Origin: Lachnospiraceae bacterium | GTDB taxonomy: Bacteria > Bacillota > Clostridia > Lachnospirales > Lachnospiraceae | Length of the DNA stretch: 64,000 bases | Direction of reading: 5' to 3' | Assembly (NCBI GenBank): GCA_024684215.1 | Contig: JAIKXH010000009.1 | Span: 1-64,000, forward strand | In this document: positions 7,045 through 62,540 of the stretch, piece after piece | Layout of the letters: each line of letters begins with the position of its first letter | Position numbering within the stretch: position 1 is the stretch's first letter | The notes under the pieces: model-generated | The model's input: the letters and a program-made list of their open reading frames with translations, nothing else | Told to the model about the DNA's origin: nothing | Database searches by the model: none | Program-made: the position numbers and the translations under genes

Positions 7045-8472
7045 TTAAACAGGATATGCCTTGTTGGCAGTATCTGCCTGAGTCATATCAACCTTTTCCT
7101 GCTGTGCCTGACGATACTTGAAGAAGTCGGTAGCAACCTGAGGGAAGAGCGCATATGAAAGTACATCCTCATCCTGCTGCTTCCATTCCTTCATCTCGTT
7201 CTCAAGCTTATCCATCTCGTTATCGAGAGTATCTGCAAAACGTCCGGTAAGTCTCTTCTCTCCGGGAATAACCTTATCGATTACTTCCTGGTTCATAGGC
7301 TTAACAGTCTGACCGTACTCACCGCGGAGAACTGCCTTGGTCTCCTTTGTAGCCATCTTGTATCTCTCGCCCATAAGAACATTAAATACAGCCTGTGTAC
7401 CAACGATCTGTGATGAAGGTGTAACAAGAGGGGGCTCACCGAGGTCTTTACGCACACGGGGAATCTCCTCGAGCACTTCACGGTACTTATCTTCTGCGTT
7501 CTGCTCTTTAAGCTGGCTAACCATGTTGGAAAGCATTCCGCCGGGTACCTGATAAAGAAGAGTCTTGATATTAACACCAAGAACCTTGGGTGAGAGAAGT
7601 CCGCTCTTTAAGCACTCATCTCTGTAGGGAGCAAAGTAATCAGCGATTTCTGCAAGGAGATCCTGATCGTAACCGGTGTCATAGGGAGTTCCTCTGAAGG
7701 TCTCTACCATAACCTCGGTAGCGGGCTGTGAGGTACCCATAGCAAGAGGACTCATTGCACAATCGATAACGTCTACACCGGCCTCAACTGCCTTAAGGTA
7801 AGTCATTGAAGCTACACCTGAAGTGTAGTGAGTGTGAAGCTGAATAGGAAGCTTGGTGTTCTCCTTCATAGCCTTGATAAGCTCAGTAGCTCTGTAAGGA
7901 ACAAGAAGTCCGGCCATATCCTTGATACAGATGGAATCTGCACCCATCTCCTCGATCTGCTTAGCCATGTTAGCCCAGTACTCGAGGGTATATGCATCTC
8001 CGAGAGTATAGGAAAGGGCAACCTGTGCATGTCCTCTTCCTTCCTGCTTCTTGATACGGTTTGTTGCATTAACTGCTTCCTGAAGATTGGGCATGTAGTT
8101 AAGGCAATCGAAAATTCTGATGATATCGATACCATTTGCGATTGATTTCTCAACGAAAGCATCTACAACATCATCTGCATAGGGACGATATCCAAGGATA
8201 TTCTGTCCTCTGAAAAGCATCTGAAGCTTTGTGTTCTTAAACTTATCACGAAGCTTTCTAAGTCTGTCCCAAGGATCTTCCTTGAGGAATCTGAGTGATG
8301 CGTCGAAAGTAGCACCACCCCAACACTCTACTGAGTGATATCCAACCTTATCCATCTTCTCTGCAATAGGAAGCATGAACTCGGTAGGCATTCTTGTAGC
8401 GATAAGAGACTGATGTGCATCACGGAGCACGGTCTCGGTTATCTTAATGGGTTTCTTTTCAATTTCTGCCAT
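7045..8472 (-). CDS. oadA: Oxaloacetate decarboxylase alpha / pyruvate carboxylase subunit B-like carboxyltransferase (5S-type)
   Basis: ITETVLRDAHQSLIATRM, CWGGATFDASLRFLKEDPW, GQNILGYRPYADDVV, LHTHYTSG motifs; no C-terminal biotinyl domain (biotin carrier is a separate gene). Confidence 0.93.
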   Translation of the reverse strand: MAEIEKKPIKITETVLRDAHQSLIATRMPTEFMLPIAEKMDKVGYHSVECWGGATFDASLRFLKEDPWDRLRKLRDKFKNTKLQMLFRGQNILGYRPYADDVVDAFVEKSIANGIDIIRIFDCLNYMPNLQEAVNATNRIKKQEGRGHAQVALSYTLGDAYTLEYWANMAKQIEEMGADSICIKDMAGLLVPYRATELIKAMKENTKLPIQLHTHYTSGVASMTYLKAVEAGVDVIDCAMSPLAMGTSQPATEVMVETFRGTPYDTGYDQDLLAEIADYFAPYRDECLKSGLLSPKVLGVNIKTLLYQVPGGMLSNMVSQLKEQNAEDKYREVLEEIPRVRKDLGEPPLVTPSSQIVGTQAVFNVLMGERYKMATKETKAVLRGEYGQTVKPMNQEVIDKVIPGEKRLTGRFADTLDNEMDKLENEMKEWKQQDEDVLSYALFPQVATDFFKYRQAQQEKVDMTQADTANKAYPV

Positions 8473-8514
8473 GATTAATTCCTTTCTAAATTTCCATCAT
8501 TGTATGTCTTTTAT

Positions 8515-8668
8515 CCTAGTAACGGCGCCTAGCATCGATAGGATTCTTCACTCACACGCCTCGCGGCTCATAACGCGTTACGCAGCGGTACTAAGCTCAT
8601 TCTTCGAATTCGCTAAGTGCCGGCGACGCTACATGGTTCGTTCAGAACCTATCGACGCTCTCGCCTGG
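8515..8668 (-). ncRNA. Putative structured RNA element, copy A (homologous to 62379-62540)
   Basis: Intergenic; aligned by eye to copy B with shared blocks (e.g. CGAACCATGTAGCG) and shared paired regions with compensatory changes and a GNRA hairpin. Confidence 0.7.
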
Positions 8669-62378: not shown

Positions 62379-62540
62379 CCTAGTGACGGTTTCAAGCATC
62401 GATAGTTTCACCGCTCACGCGCCTCTCGGCTCATATCGCTCCAGTAGCGGAACTAAACTCATGCAGCGTTTACACTTGCATTCGTTAAGTACCGACGTCG
62501 CTACATGGTTCGCTTTGGAAACCATCGATGCTCTCACCTG
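62379..62540 (-). ncRNA. Putative structured RNA element, copy B (homologous to 8515-8668)
   Basis: Intergenic between pgk and tpiA; same stem arrangement as copy A with compensatory changes and a GAGA tetraloop hairpin. Confidence 0.7.

Follow-up and report, generated by a model that had tools for sequence, protein, structure and literature searches.

What is the sequence that fills the gap between oadB and oadA in this Lachnospiraceae bacterium, and why does a similar sequence separate pgk from tpiA in the same window, i.e., the whole stretch of 64,000 nucleotides analysed here? An earlier note on this DNA regarded the two sequences as homologous copies of a structured intergenic RNA. The two minus-strand copies, A and B, are located where that note placed them and align from end to end except at a variable hairpin tip, and the stems and hairpins that it quoted are present in both. 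The copies also fold alike, with energies of -61.2 kcal/mol for A (z -3.0) and -61.7 kcal/mol for B (z -4.8) when measured against dinucleotide shuffles. The limits of copy A were set by its alignment with copy B, by the ends that it has in common with the orthologous element of genome G157, and by an end motif found at both A and B. The main features, with the names of all four neighbouring genes backed by NCBIfam, are as follows.

8512..8668, minus strand: copy A, whole element, in the oadB-oadA gap; termini CCAGG (8668-8664) and CCGTTACTAGGATA (8525-8512)
8531..8659, minus strand: covariance-model match of copy A (outer stem P1 plus core); model R1 119.1 bits, E 7.8e-33; model R2 96 bits
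62376..62540, minus strand: copy B, whole element, in the gap between the minus-strand genes pgk and tpiA; termini CAGG (62540-62537) and CCGTCACTAGGAAA (62389-62376)
62394..62533, minus strand: covariance-model match of copy B; R1 129.8 bits, E 3.5e-36; R2 104.9 bits
8679-9830, minus strand: oadB, sodium-pump decarboxylase beta subunit
7045-8472, minus strand: oadA, sodium-pump decarboxylase alpha subunit

The idea of a stand-alone intergenic RNA was not supported: the element is a mobile multi-copy repeat that is present or absent at orthologous sites and has no preferred orientation. We consider A and B to be non-autonomous, MITE-like mobile repeats of the Lachnospiraceae with a shared, strand-specifically folded core that serves the element, and we assign this reading a probability of approximately 0.7. 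Many copies, intergenic insertions that are missing in sister genomes, terminal repeats with target duplications in a relative, and a structure under strand-specific selection were all shown.

Distribution of the family

When copy A was used as a DNA query against its own genome, copy B was recovered at E 2.4e-19, together with further copies on contigs C13, C133 and C41. The covariance-model searches that the earlier note had proposed extended the family: R1 found eight copies in this genome, six of them beyond A and B, and matched 67 of 150 sampled Lachnospiraceae genomes, in which a carrier often holds 10-35 copies (maximum 35). When 290 genomes were drawn from the class and strict filters applied, matches were obtained in 7 of 10 Lachnospiraceae and in 0 of the 280 others. 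The contig titles among the matches listed are mostly those of Lachnospiraceae, Butyrivibrio, Agathobacter, Falcatimonas and unclassified Clostridia, with gut or rumen as a frequent source, and the few titles of MAGs from other groups among these matches may be mislabelled. The first alignment, A3, comprised six copies with a hand-made structure; R2 was refined from 45 sequences, with helix P4 revised, and the collection used for family statistics holds at least about 200 copies.

The element is 130-240 bp long, intergenic, multi-copy and without coding capacity. Although it occurs in nearly half of the sampled genomes of a family dominant in the gut, it has no match in Rfam, where no family reached the gathering score for the window element or for ten other loci. 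The element appears to be undescribed: the literature that we searched contained no description of it, although it may be among the thousands of candidate RNAs listed in the supplements of PMC8040213. Carriage by phages or plasmids was rejected, as 2.9 million viral contigs yielded 0 matches to a strict pattern, and the phage or plasmid records yielded 0 to copy A.

Ends, insertion sites and mobility

In a relative, genome G051, copies of approximately 240 bp start with GTTACTTTTCATGGGGTGGGG and end with its complement. Many of these copies are flanked by direct repeats of 8-9 bp (GCTTTCTC, TCTCGCAT, GACAGCAA and GAGTTCCG), and the mean best 8-mer match between flanks is 6.5 vs. 4.5 for shuffled partners. 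The same ends flank a reading frame for an IS66-family transposase of 592 aa in a divergent element (C149:308-2607, locus L273), and they also flank short core-less hairpins, from about 48 bp. In genome G131, the ends are TAGGTAATTGCGAAACTA, and core-less short forms are likewise present. Because core-less hairpins with matching ends occur in both genomes, movement does not strictly depend on the core.

Some features of a MITE are seen in the family at large and others in G051. The element is short, noncoding and present in up to 35 copies per genome, and its presence or absence varies at orthologous oadB-oadA sites, while terminal repeats, target duplication and an autonomous partner with matching ends were all observed in G051. 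The oadB-oadA gap is short and free of the element in genomes G158, G159, G150 and G156, and in G157 it contains a diverged element with the ends of copy A. A clean target duplication was not seen at copies A and B, which have their ends in common. The earlier note had also raised the prospect that the sequence might be just a fragment of a transposon; it does belong to a transposable unit, yet the core shows conservation and no decay.

Further arrangements were observed. In the oadB-oadA gap of G155 (L244), the ends TTACAG...GTGACTAGG enclose approximately 35 bp without a core, which represents either a core-less form or a deletion. The pgk-tpiA gap of sister genomes of the genus (L224, L225, L227 and L228) holds other palindromic repeats, each unlike this family, and this gap is a hot spot for hairpin elements. 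In the genome of the window, the terminal motif CCGTAACTAGGATA also occurs by itself between genes (C118:17991-18004, L308), inside ATATCC-CGTAACTA-GGATAT, and may be the scar of a lost element.

The copies are frequently combined. In genome G047, 26 of the 35 copies lie in 13 units, each a pair of inverted cores with common outer ends and a variable spacer. Among the collected loci, close inverted pairs are divergent in 17 cases and convergent in 0, with two tandem pairs; because several inverted pairs come from one genome, the independent cases number about a dozen. Within one genome, the outer arms vary from copy to copy but remain complementary. On contig C62 of the window genome (L006:1277-1650), one copy is flanked by extra tandem half-arms of its own, the 5′ arm being repeated approximately three times on the left and the 3′ arm twice on the right.

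We searched for a mobilising enzyme in several ways. IS66 was rejected as a general mobiliser (17 of 67 carriers vs. 50 of 150 genomes overall), as was Y1/RAYT (37 of 67 vs. 84 of 150), and the window genome has no match to either IS66 or Y1. Transposase genes between paired cores were also rejected, the ORFs checked there being unrelated and mostly housekeeping proteins. An autonomous element was not found when sought by its ends in G131 and in the window genome, and no nuclease gene was seen beside the copies examined.

Structure of the conserved core

Within the long outer stem P1, the sequence of which varies between subfamilies, lies a conserved core of approximately 95 nt that consists of the stack P2-P6-P4-P3 and a side hairpin, P5, with a GNRA loop. 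The corresponding features in the window are the following.

8636..8641, minus strand: P2, 5′ strand ACGAAC, covarying helix; partner 8550-8555
8550..8555, minus strand: P2, 3′ strand GUGAGU, covarying helix
8623..8626, minus strand: P4, 5′ strand, family consensus ACGY; partner 8580-8583, consensus RCGU; revised helix, from covariation and RNAalifold on a structure-blind alignment
8586..8622, minus strand: P3 arm CGGCACUUAGC-GA-AUUC-GAA-GAAU-GA-GCUUAGUACCG, with U.U, C.A and tandem G.A; the most conserved part of the family
8558..8567, minus strand: P5 hairpin of copy A, GCC-GCGA-GGC, with a GNRA loop
62421..62430, minus strand: P5 hairpin of copy B, GCC-GAGA-GGC, read from the sequence

P2 has the family consensus GCAGAC/GUCUGC; most relatives are Watson-Crick at the positions where copy A carries a tandem G.A, a version also found in copies B and C13. 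P6 consists of two covarying pairs, and P4 is ACGY/RCGU with a YU bulge, its outermost pair being U.U in copy A. P3 (CGGYACUUARY/RYUUAGUACCG) contains a U.U mismatch and one pair that is either C.A or U-A, followed by tandem G.A and a variable tip. One of these helices differs from the second stem described in the earlier note, GUAGCG/CGCUGC. The latter does pair in the three copies A, B and C13; across 43 sequences, however, only 67.8% of its cells are paired, and RNAalifold does not recover it from a structure-blind alignment. It is ACGY/RCGU, lying a few nucleotides closer to the centre, that shows covariation throughout the family. In copy B taken alone, the stem of the note pairs better than ACGY/RCGU.

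Across the family, P5 is a hairpin of two or three pairs with a GNRA loop. This loop, to which the earlier note had drawn attention as specific to one strand, is a GNRA in 190 of the 199 distinct copies, and its N is A, C or G and never U; the tandem G.A in its plain form is present in 172 of the same 199 copies. In addition, one position of P3 is C.A or U-A and almost never C-G or U.G. A tertiary contact is a possible explanation for this restricted position and for the missing U.

Apparent selection on the folded strand

The compensatory changes that had been noticed between A and B recur on a larger scale. In alignment A3, both partners have changed in 20 of 46 pairs, compared with 9.6 in shuffles. 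Over 119 distinct sequences, 92.2% of cells are paired and 41 of 45 pairs have changed on both sides, and a control with slid partners gives 30-48% of cells paired. Covariation was assessed with a simplified version of the R-scape idea (a G-test with average-product correction and null alignments evolved on a FastTree tree) on the 68 sequences left after a 90% filter. At E <= 0.05, 34 pairs are significant, including 31 within the model structure and 3 that extend P1. With a structure-blind MAFFT alignment, 20 significant pairs remain, and RNAalifold on a structure-blind alignment recovers all of the helices except P6. On the assigned strand, G.U exceeds A.C by 60:7 in P2 and by 86:37 in P1; these are table sums and, because the copies are related, neither they nor the loop counts are independent. 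Selection therefore seems to act on one folded strand, and the tree-aware covariation, the retained GNRA loop and the one-strand G.U bias together bear out the selection on the fold that the earlier note had proposed. Judged from sequence, the folded molecule is probably RNA, which is the simplest reading of a strand-specific fold; single-stranded DNA would give the same bias.

The alternative that survives best, although we consider it unlikely, is that the fold acts as a single-stranded or extruded DNA hairpin for a recombinase or transposase, in the style of REP/RAYT, IS200/IS605 or attC, with the GNRA-like loop as a stable DNA mini-hairpin. The element is mobile and palindromic, the strand-specific excess of G.T over A.C fits folded DNA equally well, the one-way inverted pairs recall REPINs, and the absence of U at N of the P5 loop also agrees with this proposal. 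However, Y1 transposase genes do not track the element according to the counts given above and are lacking in the window genome, there is no replication-strand bias (85:83), and the variety of GNRA loops, the tandem G.A and the U.U are typical of RNA. Somewhat more doubtful is the view that the core is an active RNA, catalytic in itself or serving a host or transposon protein as scaffold or guide, and that different mobile elements of the Lachnospiraceae carry it because it helps them to spread or survive, as a mobile module tied to no single transposase.

It is improbable that the covariation arose from DNA template switching within a palindrome and without any selection on a folded molecule. 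Template switching can create and maintain hairpins (PMC8794818), and the outer arms, which differ among the copies of one genome and stay complementary, may owe their complementarity partly to this process; therefore, covariation of P1 alone is no proof of RNA selection, and template switching may well explain part of P1. As an explanation of the core it is unlikely, because core helices with interrupted pairing also covary, unpaired positions and GNRA loops are conserved, and the bias of G.U over A.C lies on one strand. Template switching accounts neither for the core helices nor for the conserved unpaired positions or the G.U bias.

For a MITE-like repeat with a core that serves the element, we propose that a DNA transposase encoded elsewhere would act on the element ends and thereby move the copies. 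If the enzyme is supplied from elsewhere and acts on the ends, different lineages can use different enzymes. Four results weigh against this reading: no promoter signal was found, the window genome has no IS66 or Y1 match, copies A and B show no clean target duplication, and core-less hairpins share the ends in G051 and G131. The core would work as a folded RNA, produced by host read-through or from a weak promoter, and this RNA would be held by a protein or by a tertiary contact of the GNRA loop. Its service would be to the element, in its spread or in the harmlessness of its insertions, and would not be the regulation of a neighbouring gene; a role for the element itself is favoured over a role for the genes beside it. 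The family combines two features that are usually apart, MITE-like mobility and a core that is conserved to the grade of an RNA and reappears between ends unrelated to one another. A role of the core in mobility, if there is one, would illustrate how small gene-less elements manage to persist.

Comparison with known elements

Structured RNAs carried by transposons include HEARO and the omega RNAs, and the present family likewise has a structured, putative RNA inside mobile DNA; it differs in that it has no Rfam match and no nuclease gene beside the copies examined. REP and REPIN sequences with their RAYT are similar in being palindromic extragenic repeats with inverted pairs in a single relative orientation. 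However, the unit here is 130-240 bp with a multi-helix core, whereas a REP is a palindrome of 20-40 bp, and there is no association with Y1 transposases. The ends and target duplications of G051 are of the IS66 type, as in IS66-family elements and their MITEs, but this holds for the G051 subfamily only, the IS itself is without the core, and IS66 is absent from most carriers.

Judged by their description, the bcr repeats of the Bacillus cereus group come closest in kind. Repeats bcr1-bcr18 are intergenic, 100-400 bp long and present in many copies in one bacterial group; bcr1-bcr3 are described as MITE-like, and some of the others as having a conserved RNA structure and being transcribed within mRNAs (PMC6542083, PMC3446304). 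The present family is also intergenic, multi-copy and limited to one bacterial group. The two differ in host family, in the TTTAT repeats to which bcr mobility is tied compared with the 8-9 bp duplications of G051, and in the one core that is common here to subfamilies with unrelated ends.

Orientation and neighbouring genes

Among the copies clear of ORFs, as judged with a simple ORF caller, 44 run in the direction of both neighbours and 50 against both, while 26 lie between convergent genes and 15 between divergent genes. Relative to the strand that carries most of the genes, orientation is even at 56:61, and it is likewise even relative to the G-rich strand, at 85:83; as a control, these two strands agree with each other 108:2 in the same loci. 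A replication- or transcription-strand preference was therefore rejected.

An amplified gene for a trans-acting small RNA with its own promoter would account for a compact and conserved fold, for placement independent of orientation and for divergent pairs, but we consider this highly improbable. The 5′ flank is not enriched in promoters over the 3′ flank (p 0.27; p 0.025 if the arm is included), the element is followed by long T-runs less often than the control, and neither an own promoter nor an intrinsic terminator is supported by the flank analysis. The least probable explanation, with almost no weight, is that oadA and tpiA are controlled by a cis-regulatory RNA such as a leader, attenuator or riboswitch. 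In its favour, both window copies lie just upstream of an operon gene in the sense orientation, but the family is split between 44 sense and 50 antisense copies, the neighbours are unrelated, the gap is empty in sister genomes, and no terminator or alternative fold signature was found. The element is not a regulator of oadA or tpiA. The family is useful for annotating many intergenic gaps, and it warns against taking single copies as gene-specific regulators.

Two minor observations concern the flanks. T-runs of at least six within 50 nt after the element occur in 3.6% of cases vs. 9.9% on the opposite strand of the same flank (approximately 190 copies), and insertions near terminators may be avoided or lost. 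Close to one copy lies an ordinary S10-Clostridia ribosomal protein leader (RF03136, L210:119-201).
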